A stretch of 50,338 nucleotides of DNA from Myxococcaceae bacterium (GTDB lineage Bacteria; Myxococcota; Myxococcia; Myxococcales; Myxococcaceae), in NCBI GenBank assembly GCA_016793095.1, contig JAEUJQ010000055.1, positions 1 through 50,338 of the forward strand, written 5' to 3'. Below the pieces are notes generated by a model, which was not told the DNA's origin, made no database searches, and saw only the letters and a program-made list of their open reading frames with translations. A program made the position numbers and the translations under genes. Position 1 is the stretch's first letter. Each line of letters opens with the position of its first letter. Below, in pieces: positions 6,584 through 23,501 of this stretch.

Positions 6584-9500
6584 TCAGGGCACGAATACGT
6601 ACGCAGCGCCGCTGCCGCTCAACGCGTTGCTGGACTGGTCGCCGTTGATCCCGCTCGCGGCCGAGTCCTCACCGCCGGCTCCACAGACCAGCGTGTTGCC
6701 GTCGCGGCTCACGACCGCCCGCCCCGCGAAGAAGTCGTTGGCATCGGTGTTCGAGGCCTTGACGAAGTGGCGCTGGCTCCACACGCCGGCGACGCGACCG
6801 AAGACGAAGGCCGCGCCGCTGTCGGAGCTCGAGTTGTTTGCCGCGTTTCCGTCCACGCCGGTGGCGTTGCTGTCTTCGCCGAAGGCGCCGATCACGACCA
6901 GGTGCCCATCACGGCTGACGCTCACGGAGTTCCCGAAGCCGTCGCCGCTGGTGAGGGTGCTGATGCTCCCGGAAGTGAACGGGCCCTTGAGGAACGCCTG
7001 CACGGTGTACGAGGTGCTGGTGGGGCTGCGGGTGAACACGTACGCCGCGCCCGACCCATACGCCGAGTACTGCGTCGTCGTGCCGTTGACGCCGGTCGCG
7101 TTGCTGTCGTCTCCCGGCGAGCCCACCACGAGCGTCGTGCCGTCTCCGCTGATGGCGACGGAGGCGCCGAAGCGATCCTCGTCGCGGAAGACCGTGGGGG
7201 AGACTCCAGACGTCAGCGCCCACCCCGGACTCGAGAAGACATCGACGACCCCGCGATCGAACGAGAAGCCGGGCGAGCCCACGGCCAGCGTGGTGCCGTC
7301 TCCGCTGAGCGCAACCGCGGACCCGAAGACGTGGTCCTGGAAGGGCCCGAACGTCTTGAGGTACGCCTGCTGAGTCCACGCTGAACCCAGGCGCCTGAAC
7401 AGGTACGCGGCGCCCGCCTCGAGCGCGCTGTTGTTGGCCTGGGACGAGCCGTTGCCGTCTTCTCCCGGAGCGCCGACCGCGAGCAGGTTCCCGTCGTCGC
7501 TGAGCGAGACGGCCGCGCCGAAGCGATCAAACGCACCCGTGTTCGAGGCCTTCAGGTACGCCTGCTGGCTCCAGGTCGTTCCGGTGCGGGTGAAGACGTA
7601 GACCGCGCCACTCCCGCTCGCCGAGTTGTCCGAGGCGTTCCCGTTGGGGCCCGTCGCGTTGCTGTCTTCTCCGCTGGCCCCGACCGCGAGGGTGTTTCCG
7701 TCGGCGCTCAGGCTGAGCGCGCCTCCGAACCGGTCGTCTGCATCGGGGTTCGACGCCTTGAGGTACGCCTGCTGGGTCCACACGCTGCCGCTGCGCACCA
7801 GCACGTAGACGGCTCCGGAGTTGAGGACCGAGTTGTCGGCCTCAGTCCCGTTGCTGTCTTCGCCCGATGCACCGACGACGAGCGTGGAGCCATCGGCGCT
7901 GAGAGCGAACGAGCTGCCGAAGCCGTCGTCGGCGTCCGGGTTCGAGGCCTTGAGCCAGGCCTGTTGGGACAGGGGGCGGAGGACGACCACCGAGTAGACC
8001 CGCGTCGCCCCGCCCGCGGCTCTCACGTGGACGACGATGGGGGTCGCAGGCCCGGCGAGCGGCACGAGCACCGTGGCCCCCGAGGTGAAGCCAACGCCGT
8101 TCAGGGTGACGGTGACCCCGGCGGGGTTGGGGACTGTGGCGTTCACCGCGACGCTCACCGTCCCCGCGGCGACGGAGGTCGTGTAGCTGAAGGTCCCCGA
8201 CGCGAACGAGATGGTGCCCGGGGTGACGGACAGCGCGCTGAGCGACGCGTCGTCCCACACGCAGCTCGTCACGCCGTTCCCCGTGTAGCCGCTGTTGCAC
8301 GCGCAGGTGCGGCTCCCCGGAGTGTTGGTGCAGGTCGCGTTGGTCGCGCAGCCGCCGTTGCTGGTGAGGCACTCGTTGATGTCCGTGCAGGTGAGGCCGT
8401 CGCCGGTGTAGCCCGAGGTGCAGGTGCAGGTGCGGCTGCCGACCGTGTTGCCGCAGGTCGCGTTCACGCTGCAGCCTCCGTTGTTCGTCAGGCACTCGTT
8501 CACGTCGGCGCAGGTGACGCCGTTGCCGGTGAAGCCCATGTTGCAGGCGCAGGTCCGACTGCCGGGCGTGTTGGTGCACGTCGCGTTGCCGCTGCACCCG
8601 CCGTTGTTCGTGAGGCACTCGTTGACGTCAGCGCAGGTGAGGCCGTCACCGGTGAACCCCATGGTGCAGGTGCAGGTGCGGCTGCCGGGGGTGTTGGCGC
8701 AGGTGGCGTTCGCGCTGCACCCCCCGTTGTTGGTGAGGCACTCGTTGACGTCTGCGCAGGTGACGCCATCACCGGTGAAGCCCGCGTTGCACGCGCACGT
8801 GCGGGCGCCGACGGTGTTGGTGCAGGTCGCGTTGGCGCTGCAGCCCCCGTTGCTCGAGAGGCACTCGTTGACGTCTGCGCAGGTGAGCCCGTTCCCGGCG
8901 TAGCCGGAGCTGCAGGTGCACGTGCGCGAGCCAGGCGTGTTCGTGCAGAGCGCGTTCGCGCTGCACCCCCCGTTGTTCGACAGGCACTCGTTCACGTCCG
9001 TGCAGGCGACACCATCACCGACGAAGCCGGCGTTGCAGGCACAGGTGCGGCTCCCGACGGTGTTGGTGCAGGTCGCGTTCGGGCTGCAGCCGCCGTTGCC
9101 CGTCAGACACTCGTTCACGTCCACGCACGTGCTGCCACTGCGGACGTAGCCTGGGTCACACAGCAGCCCGCAGGTGCTGCCGTTGCAGGTCGCCGTGCCA
9201 TTCGCGGCGGACGGACAGACCCTGCACGAGGTGCCGCAGGAGGTGACGGCGGTGTCCGGCACGCACTGCTGCCCGCACGCGTGCTGCCCTGCAGGACAGC
9301 GGCACTGCCCGGAGGTGCAGGTCGCCCCCATCGGGCAGTCGGTGCTCAAGCGGCAGCCAGCCAGACAGCCCCGCGTGACCGGATCGCAGAAGTAGCCTGG
9401 CCCACAGCCGGGGCCCGTCGTGCAGTCCATCGGCAGGAGCTGACAGCTCCCCCGGTTGCAGACCTCACCGTTGCCGCACACCCAGCCGCACTGGCCGCAG

Positions 9501-10114
9501 TTCTCGACGTCAGCGAGGGTGTCGACGCACATGAGGCTGCACTCCGCGAGGGTGCCGGCGCAGACGCCGCCGGCAGCTCCACCAGCGGCGCCTCCGCCCG
9601 CCCCACCGGCCAGCCCACCGGCGACCCCACCCGCCGTAGCGTTACCACCGCCCGTCGAGCCGCCAGCGCCGCCGCCAGCCGTCGAGCCCCCCGCGATGCC
9701 TCCCGCTTCACCACCGGCAGTCCCTCCACCACCCGTCGAGCCACCCGCGATTCCTCCCGCCTCACCACCGCCGGTCGCTGCGCCGCCGGCCTCACCGCCC
9801 GCCGTCGAACCGCCGGCCTGACCGCCCGCCGTCGAACCACCGCCCTCACCGCCGCCAGCCATGCCGCCCGCCGTCCCGCCGCCGAGGTTCGAACCGGGGA
9901 CACAGGCGCCCAGAGAGCAGGTGAAGCCAAGCGAACAGGCCTCGCAGACCGCGCCTCCGAGCCCGCACTGCGACGCCTCGACGCCGGCGACGCACTGACC
10001 GTTCTGACAACACCCGCCACAGGTGGCAGGTCCACACGCAGGCGCCGGGGGCGAGCTGCAGGAGAAGAGCGAAACCCCGAAGAGGAAGGCGACCGACAGA
10101 ACTGAGCGGAACAT
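6584..10114 (-). CDS. Integrin-like surface lipoprotein: EGF-Ca x7, cadherin-like domain, FG-GAP propeller
   Basis: 1176 residues from the ATG at 10114; GAGGGG upstream supports this start over one 21 codons earlier. Order of parts: lipoprotein signal with Cys19 (GVSLFSC); a cysteine cluster; a Gly-rich linker (about residues 75-185); further cysteine modules; seven tandem calcium-binding EGF domains (about 332-617), each opening D(V/I)NECL and carrying six cysteines; one cadherin-like beta-sandwich (LSALSVTPGTISFASGTFSY, about 620-712); and seven FG-GAP-type repeats to the C-terminus (for example DADDRFGGALSLSADGNTLA and GAVYVF), enough for a seven-bladed propeller. EGF and FG-GAP units usually mediate calcium-dependent adhesion, so an adhesin or matrix role is inferred. 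It is transcribed divergently from the TonB receptor gene, with a palindrome in the shared spacer. Confidence 0.85.
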   Translation of the reverse strand: MFRSVLSVAFLFGVSLFSCSSPPAPACGPATCGGCCQNGQCVAGVEASQCGLGGAVCEACSLGFTCSLGACVPGSNLGGGTAGGMAGGGEGGGSTAGGQAGGSTAGGEAGGAATGGGEAGGIAGGSTGGGGTAGGEAGGIAGGSTAGGGAGGSTGGGNATAGGVAGGLAGGAGGGAAGGAAGGVCAGTLAECSLMCVDTLADVENCGQCGWVCGNGEVCNRGSCQLLPMDCTTGPGCGPGYFCDPVTRGCLAGCRLSTDCPMGATCTSGQCRCPAGQHACGQQCVPDTAVTSCGTSCRVCPSAANGTATCNGSTCGLLCDPGYVRSGSTCVDVNECLTGNGGCSPNATCTNTVGSRTCACNAGFVGDGVACTDVNECLSNNGGCSANALCTNTPGSRTCTCSSGYAGNGLTCADVNECLSSNGGCSANATCTNTVGARTCACNAGFTGDGVTCADVNECLTNNGGCSANATCANTPGSRTCTCTMGFTGDGLTCADVNECLTNNGGCSGNATCTNTPGSRTCACNMGFTGNGVTCADVNECLTNNGGCSVNATCGNTVGSRTCTCTSGYTGDGLTCTDINECLTSNGGCATNATCTNTPGSRTCACNSGYTGNGVTSCVWDDASLSALSVTPGTISFASGTFSYTTSVAAGTVSVAVNATVPNPAGVTVTLNGVGFTSGATVLVPLAGPATPIVVHVRAAGGATRVYSVVVLRPLSQQAWLKASNPDADDGFGSSFALSADGSTLVVGASGEDSNGTEADNSVLNSGAVYVLVRSGSVWTQQAYLKASNPDADDRFGGALSLSADGNTLAVGASGEDSNATGPNGNASDNSASGSGAVYVFTRTGTTWSQQAYLKASNTGAFDRFGAAVSLSDDGNLLAVGAPGEDGNGSSQANNSALEAGAAYLFRRLGSAWTQQAYLKTFGPFQDHVFGSAVALSGDGTTLAVGSPGFSFDRGVVDVFSSPGWALTSGVSPTVFRDEDRFGASVAISGDGTTLVVGSPGDDSNATGVNGTTTQYSAYGSGAAYVFTRSPTSTSYTVQAFLKGPFTSGSISTLTSGDGFGNSVSVSRDGHLVVIGAFGEDSNATGVDGNAANNSSSDSGAAFVFGRVAGVWSQRHFVKASNTDANDFFAGRAVVSRDGNTLVCGAGGEDSAASGINGDQSSNALSGSGAAYVFVP
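8263..9121 (-). repeat. Seven tandem ~123-bp EGF-coding repeats
   Basis: Seven direct repeats of about 123 bp each encode one calcium-binding EGF domain. They are highly similar at the DNA level (for example GAGGCACTCGTT recurs in most units on the plus strand), which suggests recent expansion or homogenisation by recombination. Confidence 0.85.
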
Positions 10115-10173
10115 GATGCAACGTAACCCCTCATGACCGCTCGAGGTGCAGGGAATCGCCAGCCTCCATGTAT

Positions 10174-10202
10174 CCAATGGTCACTTCTGATGTGACCACT
10201 GG
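10174..10202. promoter_or_regulatory. 29-bp near-perfect palindrome, candidate operator
   Basis: CCAATGGTCAC at 10174-10184 and GTGACCACTGG at 10192-10202 are inverted 11-bp arms with one mismatch around a 7-bp centre. The inner 7-bp arms are perfect. It sits in the spacer between the divergent adhesin (start 10114) and TonB-receptor (start 10406) genes, 60 bases before the adhesin start. Its size and symmetry fit a dimeric repressor or activator site. The rest of the spacer shows nothing else I can assign. Confidence 0.5.
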
Positions 10203-13776: not shown

Positions 13777-14945
13777 GAGGTCTGCAACTGCTCCTCCTGG
13801 TGACGGCGTGCAGCCCGCCGCCAGCCGCGCCCGCGCCGCCGCCCGCGCCGGCCCTCGAGGTGCCGCCGTCGAGCGCCTCGCAGCCGCTCACGTCGCGCCG
13901 GTTCACCGTCCGCGCCTCGACGAGGAGCGACACCGTCGTGCGCCTCTTCGTGAGCCTCGATTGCTCCGGGCCCGAGCTGCGTCGCGACACGGCGGTCGAG
14001 CTCGAGCGCGGCGTCGAGGTGGAGTCGGTGCACGGGAAGAACGTCTTCTCGGCCGTCGCCGTCGACCCCACCGGCCTGCCGTCGCCGTGTTCGGCCCCGG
14101 TCACTGTCGAGGTGCGCCTGCCGATGCGGGGCTCGTTCAGCGCGCCACAGGTCCTCCGCGTGTCCCCGCCCATGCCGACGAGAGAACGAACGGCCACCTT
14201 GCAGGGGACGACCCAGCAGGGGTGGACCGTGCGCGTGTGGGGCGGCCGCGAGTGCCAGGGGCCGCTGCTGGCGTCGACTGACGCAGCGACCTTTCAGCGC
14301 CAGGGCGTCGAGGTGCCACTGCCGCCCAACCGCAAGCTCGAGGTGACGCTCGACGCCGAGCTGAGCGCCACCCAGACGCTGTGCAACGGGCCGGTGCTGC
14401 TGCTGGAGAACGACGAGGTGCCGCCGCTGGCGCCGCGTGGCCGCTTCTTCCCGCCGCCGCCGTGGCCCAACGCCGAGAAGGCGGTGGTGCTGGAGGACCT
14501 TCAAGACGCGCGGTTCGTGTCGTTGTCCGCAGGCGACACCTGCACGCCGAGCACGTTGGTGCCGGTGCGGACGTTCTGCGGTGGCGGGGTCTGCCAGACC
14601 GTGGTGCTGCCCCTCATCGTCGGCAGCGCCACGACCTGGGGCCTGCAGCTCATCGACGGCGCTGGCAACCGGAGCGCCTGCACCCCGATCAGCAACGACG
14701 TCGACCCCCGGCTCGAGGCGCCCCCGGTGTACCTCGAGGCGCTCGACGCGGGCATCAGCCTGAACCTGCTCGCCATCAGCTCGGTGCCAGGCCCCATCGA
14801 GTTTCACGCAATCCCCGGGTGTCCCGGCACCGGAGTCGTCCCGACCTCCCTGGCCGCGAACCTCGCCGTGCTCACCGAGCAGCTCCGCCAGCGCTGGTTC
14901 GCCTCCGTCGGGCGCGACGCGGGCACCTGCGCCGCGGCCCCGTGA
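13773..14945 (+). CDS. Lipoprotein of the TonB-receptor operon, unknown family
   Basis: 390 residues. The ATG at 13773 sits in an ATGA overlap with the preceding stop. MRGLQLLLLVTAC gives lipid Cys13, followed by a Pro/Ala-rich linker. The body is beta-rich, with pairs of cysteines in similar contexts (LFVSLDCSGPELR, VRVWGGRECQGPLL, PSTLVPVRTFCGGG). This suggests three or four diverged Ig/fibronectin-like modules, each with a disulfide. No enzyme motif is visible. It is the third gene of the receptor operon, and the next gene starts 39 bases downstream behind its own -10-like box. Confidence 0.72.
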   Translation: MRGLQLLLLVTACSPPPAAPAPPPAPALEVPPSSASQPLTSRRFTVRASTRSDTVVRLFVSLDCSGPELRRDTAVELERGVEVESVHGKNVFSAVAVDPTGLPSPCSAPVTVEVRLPMRGSFSAPQVLRVSPPMPTRERTATLQGTTQQGWTVRVWGGRECQGPLLASTDAATFQRQGVEVPLPPNRKLEVTLDAELSATQTLCNGPVLLLENDEVPPLAPRGRFFPPPPWPNAEKAVVLEDLQDARFVSLSAGDTCTPSTLVPVRTFCGGGVCQTVVLPLIVGSATTWGLQLIDGAGNRSACTPISNDVDPRLEAPPVYLEALDAGISLNLLAISSVPGPIEFHAIPGCPGTGVVPTSLAANLAVLTEQLRQRWFASVGRDAGTCAAAP

Positions 14946-16883: not shown

Positions 16884-17417
16884 ATGCGCACCGTCTGCTT
16901 CTCTGCACTCCTCGTGGTCGCCTGCGGCCCGGTCGCCACCTCACCACCGAAAGCGCAGTCGGCCGTCGAGCCGGCGGCCCTCTCGCTGGCTGACGTGAAC
17001 CCGGGCTCTCCCATGGCTGGGCAGCAGGTCGGACCGACGAGCTTCCGCGGCAAGGTGAGCGGCTGGTACTTCACCCACACGAGTTGAGGCTACTGCCGGG
17101 GCCAGGCTGGCCTCCTTCAGACGATGCAGGGCGAGCTCGACGCGGTCGCTCCGGGAGCGGTGGTGTTGCTCGCCGTGAACGCCGCTGGCTTCGAGTCGGG
17201 GAACGAGGGCTTCGTCTCGGGCAAGACGATGCCGCTGCTGCAGGACACCGCGCAGGTGAACCTCTGGGCCGCGTGGAGCGTCACGTACCGCGACGTCATC
17301 GTGCTCGACGCCGAGGGGAAACAACGCGCCGTCTACAACCTGACGACGAACGACCTCTCGTCGGCCACGAACTTCGCGGCGCTGAAGCGACTGCTGCTCG
17401 ACGCGCGCGCTCCCTGA
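16884..17417 (+). CDS. Candidate selenocysteine lipoprotein, thioredoxin-fold, UxxC motif (in-frame TGA at 17085-17087)
   Basis: One frame runs from the ATG at 16884 to the TGA at 17415, interrupted only by TGA at codon 68. Read as selenocysteine, the product has 177 residues: lipoprotein signal MRTVCFSALLVVAC (Cys14), a linker, then SLADVNPGSPMAGQQVGP and FRGKVSGWYFTHTS-U-GYC. This places U68-G-Y-C71 at the end of a beta strand, exactly where thioredoxin-like proteins carry CxxC. Beyond the TGA the fold continues (VVLLAVNAAGF, MPLLQDTAQVNLWAAW, RDVIVLDAEGKQRAVYNL). This order of motifs recalls the thioredoxin-like N-terminal domain of selenoprotein P from memory. A hairpin with GG in its loop starts 11 bases after the TGA, as expected for a bacterial SECIS. 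Alternatives are a truncated 67-residue peptide, a pseudogene, or a sequencing error changing TGC or TGT to TGA. No frameshift is needed. Confidence 0.65.
17098..17114 (+). promoter_or_regulatory. Candidate bacterial SECIS hairpin
   Basis: GGGGCCA (17098-17104), loop GGC (17105-17107) and TGGCCTC (17108-17114) form a 7-bp stem with one G-U pair. The loop begins 17 nt after the UGA and starts with GG. Bacterial SECIS elements need an apical loop about 16-37 nt from UGA with a G in the first two loop bases. Opening the top A-U pair gives loop AGGCU, which resembles the E. coli fdhF loop. A 3-nt loop is at the small end of the range. Confidence 0.5.
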
Positions 17418-17427
17418 CGAGGCTCCC

Positions 17428-17952
17428 ATGCTCGCGCTCATCGCTCTGCTGGTGCTGGCAGCTGATCCAACGAGCTGTGCTGCTGACGCGGACTGCGTGC
17501 TGATCAGCGGCTGCGAGTGCAGCTGCTGCCCGCGGCCGCTCAAGGCGGTGACGAAGCCTGAGGCTGAGGCGGTCAGGCGGCGCTGCGCAACGCTCGGCGA
17601 TTGCGGCGACGTCTGCAGGGCGGGCGAGCTGGCGAAGTGTCAGGCCCCCGAAGACCCCGCGGCGGTGAAGGCGGTGTGCCGTGGAGGCCGGTGTGTGAAG
17701 GAGCCGGCGAAGGCCGAGTGCACGACGGACGACGACTGCGCGATGGCGCATGACTGCGGCTGTGAGTGCTGTCCTTCGCCGTGGGTCGCCCTCCCCAGGG
17801 ACCGGGCCGCCAGGCTGAAACAGAAGTGCGCCCGGCTGGGTCCGTGCCGCCCGCCTGACGACCAGTGCCGGGAGGTGAAGTGCCCAGCGCTCACCGAGCG
17901 GACCGCGAGCTGTCGGGAGGGCCGGTGTGAGGCCGTGCCCCGGAAGCGGTAG
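17428..17952 (+). CDS. Secreted cysteine-rich protein of two duplicated modules
   Basis: 174 residues. A signal peptide (MLALIALLVLAADPT) is followed by two homologous modules of about 65-70 residues. Module 1 has ADCVLISGCECSCCPRP and ends CRGGRCVKEP. Module 2 has DDCAMAHDCGCECCPSP and ends CREGRCEAVP. About 26 cysteines suggest a disulfide-rich extracytoplasmic protein. Its start is 10 bases after the stop of the candidate selenoprotein with GAGG before the ATG, so the two are probably cotranscribed. A link between a thioredoxin-like selenoprotein and a disulfide-rich neighbour is attractive but is only inference. No family is recognised. Confidence 0.75.
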   Translation: MLALIALLVLAADPTSCAADADCVLISGCECSCCPRPLKAVTKPEAEAVRRRCATLGDCGDVCRAGELAKCQAPEDPAAVKAVCRGGRCVKEPAKAECTTDDDCAMAHDCGCECCPSPWVALPRDRAARLKQKCARLGPCRPPDDQCREVKCPALTERTASCREGRCEAVPRKR

Positions 17953-18023: not shown

Positions 18024-18464
18024 ATGACCATCTCCGTCAACCGCAGCGCGCCCACCGCCGTCCGCTCCGCGACCCAGTCCGAGACCGTCGCTCCTGCCGC
18101 GCCGAAGTCACAGGCGCAGGCCTCGACGGGGTACTCGGCAGCCAGCAGCTACTCGTCGGCTTCGACCGCCGAGTCGGGTTCAGCCGCCGACACCAAGAAG
18201 GCCATCGAGATCCTCGGGAAGACCGAGGGTGGCGAGAAGCTGAAGAAGCTCCTGTCGGAGACCTACATGACCTCGAGCGAGGTGAGCGAGGCCATCGAGG
18301 AGTTCGAGAAGATCGGCGGCAAGCTCTCCGAGGGCGATCGCGCCGTGGTCGAGCAGGCGGTGCGCTTCGAGTCAGCGCTCTCGGGCTGCATCAACATGGG
18401 CAAGATGATCATGGACCGGCTGCTCGCCCAGTTGAAAGAGAACAACAAGATGCCGCAGTGGTAG
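18024..18464 (+). CDS. Small hypothetical protein, disordered N-terminus plus helical C-terminus
   Basis: 146 residues. The first 55 or so are Ser/Ala/Thr-rich and probably disordered (no signal peptide). Residues about 58-146 are predicted helical and charged (KKAIEILGKTEGGEKLKKLL, SSEVSEAIEEFEKIGGKL, SALSGCINMGKMIMDRLLAQ). I do not recognise the family. The small acidic helical body with a polar N-terminus would fit a secreted effector or a structural partner, but nothing proves this. The next gene starts 10 bases downstream behind its own -10-like box. Confidence 0.65.
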   Translation: MTISVNRSAPTAVRSATQSETVAPAAPKSQAQASTGYSAASSYSSASTAESGSAADTKKAIEILGKTEGGEKLKKLLSETYMTSSEVSEAIEEFEKIGGKLSEGDRAVVEQAVRFESALSGCINMGKMIMDRLLAQLKENNKMPQW

Positions 18465-18474: not shown

Positions 18475-18855
18475 GTGAGCTCGACCGCAGCGACCCGCTT
18501 CGAACACGCACTCAGGGAACGCCTCCGCAGCGACGCTGACCTCGCGAAGCTGGCGTCCGTGCTGGGCATCACCCACGACACCCTCCTCGCGATGATGGCG
18601 CAGGTGGCGATCGACCCCGACTCGACGCCACGCGTCGATCTGGTCTCGCGGTCGAGCAAGAAACCCCTGGTGACGGGTCCCGAGCTCATCGGCTACGTGA
18701 AGAAGGCCGTCGAGCTGGCGCGCGCTGCTGATCCGAAGCTGTTCGCCGACGTGAAGAAGCAGGCCCTCGCGCAGACGCAGCCCGGTGATGGACGCAGCGC
18801 CGACCCCGCACTCAAGGCCGAGCTGGAGAAGCTGCTGAAGCGCGGTGCCCGCTGA
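18475..18855 (+). CDS. Small hypothetical helical protein
   Basis: 126 residues from a GTG that follows a TAGCGT box. It is mostly helical: FEHALRERLRSDADLAKLAS, TGPELIGYVKKAVELARAAD, and a basic C-terminus ending KLLKRGAR. It has no signal peptide or membrane helix. No family is recognised. The location just after another small helical protein of similar size suggests a pair, but their sequences are not obviously related. Confidence 0.62.
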   Translation: MSSTAATRFEHALRERLRSDADLAKLASVLGITHDTLLAMMAQVAIDPDSTPRVDLVSRSSKKPLVTGPELIGYVKKAVELARAADPKLFADVKKQALAQTQPGDGRSADPALKAELEKLLKRGAR

Positions 18856-19198: not shown

Positions 19199-21034
<1,836 letters not shown>

Positions 21035-22136: not shown

Positions 22137-22154
22137 CTGGTGCGTTCACGTCCC

Positions 22155-23501
22155 ATGAGCCTCTCTCTCGTCCCTCAGGACACCGCGACTGTCAGGGCGC
22201 CCGACGCGTTCGGGGCGTACGTCGTCGAGGAGCGGCTCGGCGAAGGCACCATGGGCTGCGTCTACCGCGCGCGGCACCAGACGCTCGGCCGCAGGGTGGC
22301 GGTGAAGAGCCTGCACCAGGCGCTGCTCGGCGATCCCGCGCTGGTGCGCCGCTTCCTGCAGGAAGCGCGGCTCGTCAACACCATCAACCACCCGCACATC
22401 GTCGAGGTGCACGACTTCGTCGAGGAGCCCGGCCAGGTGTACGCGGTGATGGAGCTGCTGGAGGGGGAGACGCTCACCGCGCGCCTGGCCTCGCAGCCGC
22501 TCTCGCTCGAGACGCTGGTGCGCATCGCCACTGAGGTCGCCGAGGCGCTCGCGGCGGCCCACGCCCTCAAGGTGGTGCACCGCGACCTCAAGCCCGACAA
22601 CGTCTTCCTCGCCACCCGCGACGGCCGGGAGTGGGTGAAGGTGCTCGACTTCGGCGTCGCCAAGCTGCTCGTCCAGGACGGCCCGCGCGTCGTCGAGACG
22701 CAGAACGGTGACGTGCTGGGCACCCCGCGGTACATGGCCCCCGAGCAGGCCGCGGGCCTCGAGTGCGACACCCGCACCGACGTCTACGCCTTCGGCACCG
22801 TCCTCTTCGAGATGCTGGCCGGCAGACCACCCTTCGAGGCGACCGTGTTCGGCCAGCTCGCCGCCGACATCATCACGCGGCCGCCGCCACCCGTACCCAC
22901 CCTCACGCGCACGGGAGAGCCGGTGCCCGAAGCGCTGCGCCGCCTCGTCGTCGCCTGCCTCGCCAAGAACGCCGACCACCGGCCACAGACGATGCAGGAC
23001 GTGCTGCGCCAGCTGTCGAACCTCGACGTCGACCTCGGCCTCGGGCCCAGCGTTCCGCGGCCGAGGTGGTACCTGCCCGTCGCGCTCCTCACCGCCGTGA
23101 CCATCGGTGCCGGCGTGGTGTTCGCGGTGAGGAGCGGTGGCACCAGGCCCGCGCCGGTGGTCGAGCCGAGCGCGCCCGTCGTGGCGCAGCCGCCCACGCC
23201 GCCTCCACCAGCGCCTGCCCCCGCCCCCGTCACGCTGGGCATCGAGACGACGCCCGCTGGCGCCACCGTCACGGACGAAGGGACCGGCGAGGTGTTGGGG
23301 ACCACCCCGCTCGCCCTCAAGCGCGAGGCCCGCGCGCAGACGATGAAGGTGCGCATCGAGTTGAAGGGCCATGAGCCGGTCACCCGGGAGTTCTCCACCG
23401 CCGAGAGCCTGCGCGTCGAGCTGCCCCTGAAACGGCTTGCGATCGCGGCGCCGAAGAAGGAGACGAAGGCCGTCACCGATGGCGTCATCGACCCGTTCTA
23501 G
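22155..23501 (+). CDS. Membrane-anchored Ser/Thr protein kinase with C-terminal PEGA-like domain
   Basis: 448 residues from the ATG at 22155 (an upstream in-frame GTG at 22140 is less likely). Kinase domain about residues 22-290: LGEGTMGCVY, Lys51, HRDLKPDN with Asp144, DFG Asp165, GTPRYMAPEQAAG. A single transmembrane helix (YLPVALLTAVTIGAGVVFAV) is followed by a Pro-rich linker. A PEGA-type beta domain comes last (LGIETTPAGATVTDEGTG, then LGTTPLALK). PEGA domains are extracytoplasmic and probably bind surface or cell-wall partners. The stop lies inside the next gene, which starts 23 bases earlier in another frame, so kinase, TPR protein and lipoprotein (to 25712) appear to be one operon. 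Confidence 0.92.
   Translation: MSLSLVPQDTATVRAPDAFGAYVVEERLGEGTMGCVYRARHQTLGRRVAVKSLHQALLGDPALVRRFLQEARLVNTINHPHIVEVHDFVEEPGQVYAVMELLEGETLTARLASQPLSLETLVRIATEVAEALAAAHALKVVHRDLKPDNVFLATRDGREWVKVLDFGVAKLLVQDGPRVVETQNGDVLGTPRYMAPEQAAGLECDTRTDVYAFGTVLFEMLAGRPPFEATVFGQLAADIITRPPPPVPTLTRTGEPVPEALRRLVVACLAKNADHRPQTMQDVLRQLSNLDVDLGLGPSVPRPRWYLPVALLTAVTIGAGVVFAVRSGGTRPAPVVEPSAPVVAQPPTPPPPAPAPAPVTLGIETTPAGATVTDEGTGEVLGTTPLALKREARAQTMKVRIELKGHEPVTREFSTAESLRVELPLKRLAIAAPKKETKAVTDGVIDPF

Follow-up and report, generated by a model that had tools for sequence, protein, structure and literature searches.

A probable lipid-anchored thioredoxin-fold selenoprotein of the TUGYCR family from a Myxococcaceae bacterium, with a SECIS hairpin conserved in its TGA relatives

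Selenoprotein P (SelP) has a UxxC thioredoxin-like domain within an exported protein and a C-terminal tail rich in selenocysteine (Sec). The proline loop that precedes a strand in ResA/TlpA-type oxidoreductases is in the cis form. A family with a U-G-Y-C-R motif is modelled in NCBIfam as NF053656 (redoxin_TUGYCR, "TUGYCR motif thioredoxin fold (seleno)protein"), a name that carries no function. A literature search under TUGYCR or NF053656 found no description. Neither designation appears in the table of prokaryotic selenoprotein families in the available text of a 2026 review (PMC13188914). According to the bSECIS model presented in that text, the RNA element that directs Sec insertion carries a G at loop position 1 or 2, with G or U often coming next, and in most cases the loop lies 16–37 nt from the UGA (PMC13188914). 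A 17-letter E. coli SECIS stretch, incomplete as printed in the available text of PMC3834832, has a similar stem and a loop starting with AGG.

The window analysed here is a stretch of 50,338 nucleotides from a Myxococcaceae bacterium (assembly GCA_016793095.1, contig JAEUJQ010000055.1). It contains a selenoprotein gene that is an added member of the family already in NCBIfam (Table 1). The encoded protein matches NF053656 with 181.2 bits against a cut-off of 100, residues 33–174 lying on profile positions 4–146 of 146, so that this kind of protein has already been modelled by NCBI. The first-pass annotation of the window had supposed that the gene would likely be missed. This is doubtful for annotation with the current NCBIfam, because NF053656 exists and scores well over its cut-off. 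NF053656 was also matched at E 10 or better by all 15 members of a mixed alignment (A1) that includes the sister group described below. The added value of the present work lies in the SECIS evidence and in a bridge to the SelP_N domain. We regard the product as very probably an exported, lipid-anchored thioredoxin-fold selenoprotein.

Table 1. Coordinates of the features discussed (window positions unless a locus label is given).
Feature	Position	Strand	Remarks
Lipoprotein signal peptide, lipobox VVA-C, Cys14	16884..16925	+	Sequence and family lipobox pattern
Selenoprotein gene	16884..17417	+	ATG 16884; 177 aa with Sec68; stop TGA 17415-17417; redoxin_TUGYCR member
UGA codon 68, very probably read as selenocysteine; residue 1 of the U-G-Y-C redox motif	17085..17087	+	TGA in 26/26 rows; TGC in L052
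TGC, Cys71, presumed resolving cysteine of UxxC	17094..17096	+	Invariant 26/26; aligns with second ResA active-site Cys
17-nt putative SECIS hairpin	17098..17114	+	Stem 17098-17103 with 17109-17114; loop 17104-17108 AGGCU
Arg136-Asp137-Val138	17289..17297	+	Invariant 26/26; stands at the ResA proline-containing PTTF loop
Cys-rich protein gene, possibly co-transcribed	17428..17952	+	10 nt downstream of the selenoprotein gene
Ser/Thr protein kinases	19199-21034; 22140-23501	+	Flank a fumarylacetoacetate-hydrolase family gene
Bacterial Cys proteins matching SelP_N	L088:1378-2184; L089:1279-2358		

The reading frame continues across a single in-frame TGA, and the start codon, the U-G-Y-C at codon 68 and the stop are all as the first-pass annotation had claimed. 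The C-terminus lies 109 residues past Sec68 with no further internal TGA. The N-terminus MRTVCFSALLVVAC carries the lipobox VVA-C14, in agreement with the exported lipoprotein that had been proposed. No sigma-70-like promoter was found between positions 14700 and 18100. Taken alone, the frame observation is weak, because the window is GC-rich and such open frames are common in it: 66 of its 1085 TGA codons (six frames) are equally open, with at least 67 codons before and at least 109 after. This would be compatible with a broken gene or a sequencing error, in which translation really ends at the TGA, or the TGA was misread from TGC, TGT or TGG, and the downstream half is a remnant. Such an explanation is extremely improbable given the constraint on the downstream half, the hairpin that appears to be under selection (see below) and the same TGA in 26 of 26 members titled as several phyla. 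Between seven close relatives (21 pairs), codon differences at positions 1, 2 and 3 amount to 143, 127 and 228 before the TGA and to 446, 394 and 767 after it. The third-position excess on both sides, in these seven sequences, points to coding constraint downstream of the TGA too.

The 26 members constitute an alignment (A3) of the window and 25 loci; the labels beginning with L for loci and with G for genomes are our own designations. All 26 rows (the window and 25/25 loci) have TGA in the codon 68 column. Metagenome-assembled genomes (MAGs) titled Myxococcales, Polyangiaceae, Latescibacterota, Planctomycetota, Phycisphaerales, Gemmatimonadetes and Verrucomicrobia are among the sources. As judged from the aligned sequences, this comparison lifts the frame across the TGA far above chance, and UGA68 is evidently a sense codon in the TUGYCR family. 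The loci were collected in two ways. A search of 60 genomes, including that of the window, gave whole-length homologues, 51–69% identical and all with TGA, in nine other genomes; identity across the TGA is 62–69% in six genomes of the genus and 51–53% in the three others. In a scan of named genomes 45 stretches fitted a pattern, and the 25 that were confirmed are the loci counted; nine of these lie on the same contigs as the nine homologues of the first search. Of the two patterns used for the scan, one specified Cys at the Sec position, and the scan should therefore not favour TGA. Six stretches on viral contigs fitted a pattern, none of which was confirmed, and a plasmid search gave no matches. 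Twenty columns of A3 are invariant, 15 of them after the Sec codon.

A search with the NF053656 profile in 195 genomes of the phylum resulted in 15 matches over the cut-off, in 13 genomes. Fourteen have one TGA, and the remaining one, L052, has TGC at the Sec codon. Distinct members with TGA number 30 (the 26 rows of A3 plus L036, L042, L043 and L057), the Cys member being L052. Neither half of the protein is missing from the homologues, which align over both and have TGA or, in L052, Cys (TGC) at codon 68. As to the lipobox, a hydrophobic run followed by the strict pattern is found in 10 of the 26 rows, and 23 fit a loose pattern; the exceptions are L080, in which it was recognized by eye, L087, which lacks it, and L082, which is cut. 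The L087 protein, from a Verrucomicrobia MAG, has the TUGYCR domain without a lipobox by pattern and about 140 extra C-terminal residues.

Several loci stand outside the 26-row counts: L036, L042, L043, L057 and L052, which were told apart; a sister group (L029–L032, L051 and the Cys-containing L034); the distant Cys relatives L048, L049, L050 and L056; the fragment L053; and L028 and L033, which are apparently unrelated. Genome G171 has L043, L052 and L057 on different contigs, i.e. two Sec versions and one Cys version, and would be useful for comparing Sec with Cys chemistry. Genome G190 also has more than one TUGYCR match, L036 and L053, the latter being a fragment without the Sec region. 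The sister group has the motif F/Y-U-T-x-C-R-S-Q-A-G and comprises L029 and L034 (both G004), L031 (G002), L032 (G001), L030 (G007) and L051 (G110). Five of these (L029, L030, L031, L032, L051) have an in-frame TGA and 6/6 stem pairs of the hairpin described below, and L034 has TGC (Cys) and 2/6 pairs. Against the TUGYCR cut-off of 100, L051 scored about 38 bits and L031 and L029 about 40 in the genome search; the sister group probably falls outside the coverage of the NF053656 model.

The putative SECIS element is a hairpin of six stem pairs and a five-base loop that starts 11 nt after the TGA, with 16 nt from UGA to loop. We take the E. coli stretch mentioned above to be the fdhF element, starting 11 nt after its UGA, and the minimal E. 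coli element has nearly the same geometry as the hairpin found here. In the corresponding alignment (A4; 65 nt, 26 rows, no gaps), 155 of 156 cells are paired (99.4%). Changes on both sides are seen for four of the six stem pairs, and the covariation score is 0.505 versus a shuffle mean of 0.175. When the partner was slid by 1–3 columns as a control, pairing was only 26–60%. RNAalifold predicts the same hairpin unaided from the alignment. A seventh stem pair (columns 16-34) was dropped, being unpaired in 21 of 26 rows. Because the hairpin sits in coding sequence, synonymous recoding was used as a control for pairing imposed by the protein. All six pairs are kept in 25 of the 26 rows; 2000 synonymous recodings kept them in 4.2 rows on average and in 11 at most. 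This indicates that the hairpin is kept at the RNA level beyond the demands of the protein. Nine further TGA relatives that had not been used to find the hairpin (L029, L030, L031, L032, L051, L036, L042, L043 and L057) all have six of six pairs; they are not all independent, since L029, L031 and L032 share the same stem letters. Cys relatives have fewer pairs of the six: two in L034, four in L052 and, for the four distant ones, two in L048, one each in L049 and L050 and three in L056. The hairpin is present in UGA members and absent in Cys relatives, which constitutes a clean natural control.

The loop AGGCU and the 16-nt distance agree with the bSECIS rule as set out in the available text of PMC13188914. 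Minimum-energy folding of the 48 nt after the UGA, compared with synonymous recodings, gave a z of −0.16 for the window and a mean z of −1.03 over 26 rows, 12 of which are below −1; for some rows the hairpin is not in the single-sequence folding optimum. The folding-energy signal is thus weak, and it is therefore the short hairpin with its covariation that carries the SECIS claim. When a SECIS covariance model was run against the genome of the window, 22 matches were obtained at E 10, of which this locus alone is strong (79 bits), the next match having E 0.03. Among the seven next-best of the 22, four have a TGA at the expected place, and none of these four is selenoprotein-like as judged by eye. 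The covariance model is biased to this gene, and the result is therefore no proof that the genome lacks other selenoproteins.

The genome of the window (8.8 Mb, 98.65% complete) encodes the whole Sec machinery that the first-pass annotation had proposed to look for: selA (560 bits, cut-off 268), selB (324 bits, cut-off 242), selD (380 bits, cut-off 125) and tRNA-Sec (70.3 bits, gathering score 47), the latter with anticodon TCA according to ARAGORN. Formate dehydrogenase alpha gave nine matches in this genome, none over the cut-off and none with an internal stop. Of the 26 genomes that contribute rows to A3, 21 have a tRNA-Sec scoring above the gathering score (9/10 and 12/16). It is missing from G014 (searched twice), G198, G199, G201 and G204 (45.9 bits, just below the score), perhaps due to incomplete assemblies. 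The complete machinery bears on whether UGA could be read as Trp, or by near-cognate suppression, instead of as Sec. The residue found in place of Sec in L052 and in L034 of the sister group is Cys and not Trp. In addition, UGA also serves as the terminal stop, in the window gene and in 16 of the other 25 genes, the rest ending with TAA or TAG. Reading as Trp or by suppression is thus very improbable, and UGA68 is almost certainly decoded as Sec. SelB and Sec-tRNA(UCA), following established bacterial biology, would bind the hairpin and insert Sec at the UGA. The selenoprotein first proposed for this locus is backed by the machinery, the conserved TGA, a Cys homologue with TGC and the hairpin, single-sequence folding energy being the one weak comparative test. 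Decoding of UGA as Sec is supported by RNA covariation, beyond homology, for a lipoprotein family of Myxococcota and of MAGs titled as several other phyla.

An AlphaFold2 model built from the 26-row alignment has a pLDDT of 91.4, with a helix at residues 69–88 right after residue 68. In structural comparison it comes closest to ResA proteins (2h1b, Z 17.0, rmsd 2.4, 135 residues, 19% identity), followed by DsbE/TlpA-like proteins and peroxiredoxin Q (Z 15.4–15.6). The predicted structure shares with ResA/TlpA the thioredoxin fold and two redox residues in CxxC-type spacing at the start of helix 1, and lacks the cis-Pro loop. The thioredoxin-like nature assigned to the protein at first sight is thus borne out by UxxC and by the ResA-like predicted fold. 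At E 0.01 the 26-row profile found nothing among the PDB sequences, and the mixed 15-row profile did obtain a match. In the hmmsearch alignment of the 15-row profile with ResA (E 0.002, weak), Sec68 and Cys71 fall on the two active-site Cys of ResA, and Tyr-Arg-Asp-Val stands where ResA has Leu-Pro-Thr-Thr-Phe. At residues 133–139, a position taken from this alignment, none of the 26 rows has a Pro. We regard a match of the window protein with DUF2946 (23 bits, cut-off 23.7) as spurious because none of the other 14 of the 15 members has one.

The Cys-rich gene following the selenoprotein gene may be co-transcribed with it. Its product is probably exported and consists of two similar halves (CxxD...CxCxCCP). 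A Pfam search of this protein gave no match, and only weak relatives, located elsewhere, are found in three of the six other genomes of the genus. The idea that it may be a client of the selenoprotein fared poorly: the flanks examined around the other 25 homologues, some of them truncated at contig ends, contain no relative of it. The sole window neighbour recurring at several homologues is the first of the two kinases (19199-21034), with relatives within about 4 kb of six of the 25. The small genes 18024-18464 and 18475-18855 recur 3–4 kb downstream in one homologue, L065. The close relatives L063, L064, L065 and L068 share neighbours among themselves, and two of these shared neighbours, taken from L063, have no Pfam match. 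Further away in the window, gene 6584-10177 on the minus strand encodes a large protein that combines seven EGF-type repeats with a cadherin-like domain and FG-GAP repeats, which is unusual in bacteria.

What could be the function of this protein? U-x-x-C on a thioredoxin fold speaks for redox chemistry and the lipobox for an envelope location. The protein is likely a reductase of peroxides or disulfides that depends on Sec and is anchored in the envelope. In the model Sec68 immediately precedes helix 1, and it would act as the attacking selenolate; Cys71 would then resolve the intermediate by forming a selenenylsulfide, and a dithiol donor of the periplasm would re-reduce the protein. The near-exclusive use of Sec and the replacement of the proline loop by an invariant Arg-Asp lead away from an ordinary disulfide exchanger and tilt towards a peroxide-type role, in which peroxides or oxidised thiols would be reduced at the surface of the envelope. 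This is a guess from anatomy, with an even chance of being right. Against a firm role stands the ranking of the nearest solved structures, with disulfide reductases first and peroxiredoxins after them. The same selenoprotein could indeed be a disulfide reductase of the ResA/TlpA type that keeps the cysteines of exported proteins reduced, and not a peroxidase. ResA (Z 17.0) and DsbE/TlpA-like proteins being the closest solved folds, and UxxC aligning with the CxxC of ResA/DsbE/TlpA, this role is a real if less than even possibility. However, invariant Arg136-Asp137-Val138 takes the place of the ResA proline loop, and no Dsb or cytochrome-maturation partner is seen among recurring neighbours, since the kinase alone recurs beside several homologues.

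The first-pass annotation had also seen a resemblance to the N-terminal domain of SelP. What stands of this claim is a link by way of Cys relatives, L088 above all; SelP_N (PF04592, cut-off 23.2) does not match the window protein itself, even at E 10. Two of the 15 members of A1 have weak SelP_N matches (best E 0.023), and there is none at E 0.01 in the window's own genome. In the 195 genomes SelP_N matched only two loci at E 0.01, L088 and L089, both of which are also matches of the TUGYCR profile below its cut-off of 100. For the Cys relative L088 the best Pfam match is SelP_N (41.5 bits) and the best NCBIfam match is TUGYCR (52.9 bits). L089 is marginal, SelP_N scoring 22.2 bits over the whole protein, below 23.2 and behind AhpC-TSA. 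It has a Kazal-like C-terminal stretch just under the Pfam cut-offs. These matches raise the possibility that the window protein belongs to the selenoprotein P family proper, as a bacterial representative. This is improbable: in addition to the lack of a SelP_N match, a Sec-rich tail was sought in the window sequence and is absent. L088 moreover matches AhpC-TSA over the cut-off (32.4 bits versus 26) and TlpA weakly, and part of the SelP likeness is therefore that of the general thioredoxin fold.

A distant SelP kinship, short of membership and seemingly more specific than the general thioredoxin fold, is plausible from these profile matches. The word "selp" does not occur in the available text of PMC13188914 and PMC9312934. 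As a bolder proposal, which we consider rather unlikely, the TUGYCR lipoproteins, the F-U-T-x-C-R sister group and the SelP_N-matching bacterial Cys proteins would constitute one exported redox family, the closest prokaryotic kin of the SelP redox domain. If this were true, the thioredoxin-like domain of the animal selenium carrier would descend from a bacterial envelope selenoperoxidase, or share a recent ancestor with it. With the L088 link, the search for a prokaryotic relative of the SelP redox domain has a concrete route that can be tested.

Compared with the known systems, the window protein is a member of NF053656, with the same U-G-Y-C-R motif, a near full-length domain match and no substantive difference. 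The resemblance to ResA/TlpA/CcmG lies in the predicted fold and in the position of both redox residues, whereas Sec replaces the first Cys and invariant Arg-Asp-Val the proline loop. AhpC-TSA (PF00578) and Redoxin (PF08534) match 12/15 and 11/15 members of A1, respectively, at E 10 or better (best E-values 3.2e-7 and 6.1e-6), but the window protein reaches only 13.3 bits with AhpC-TSA, below the cut-off of 26, and has no Redoxin match. Finally, unlike proteins with SelP_N, the window protein has no match to that profile, has no Sec-rich C-terminal region and is predicted to be lipid-anchored; like them, it would be an exported protein with a UxxC thioredoxin-like domain, and it is connected to them via the Cys relative L088.
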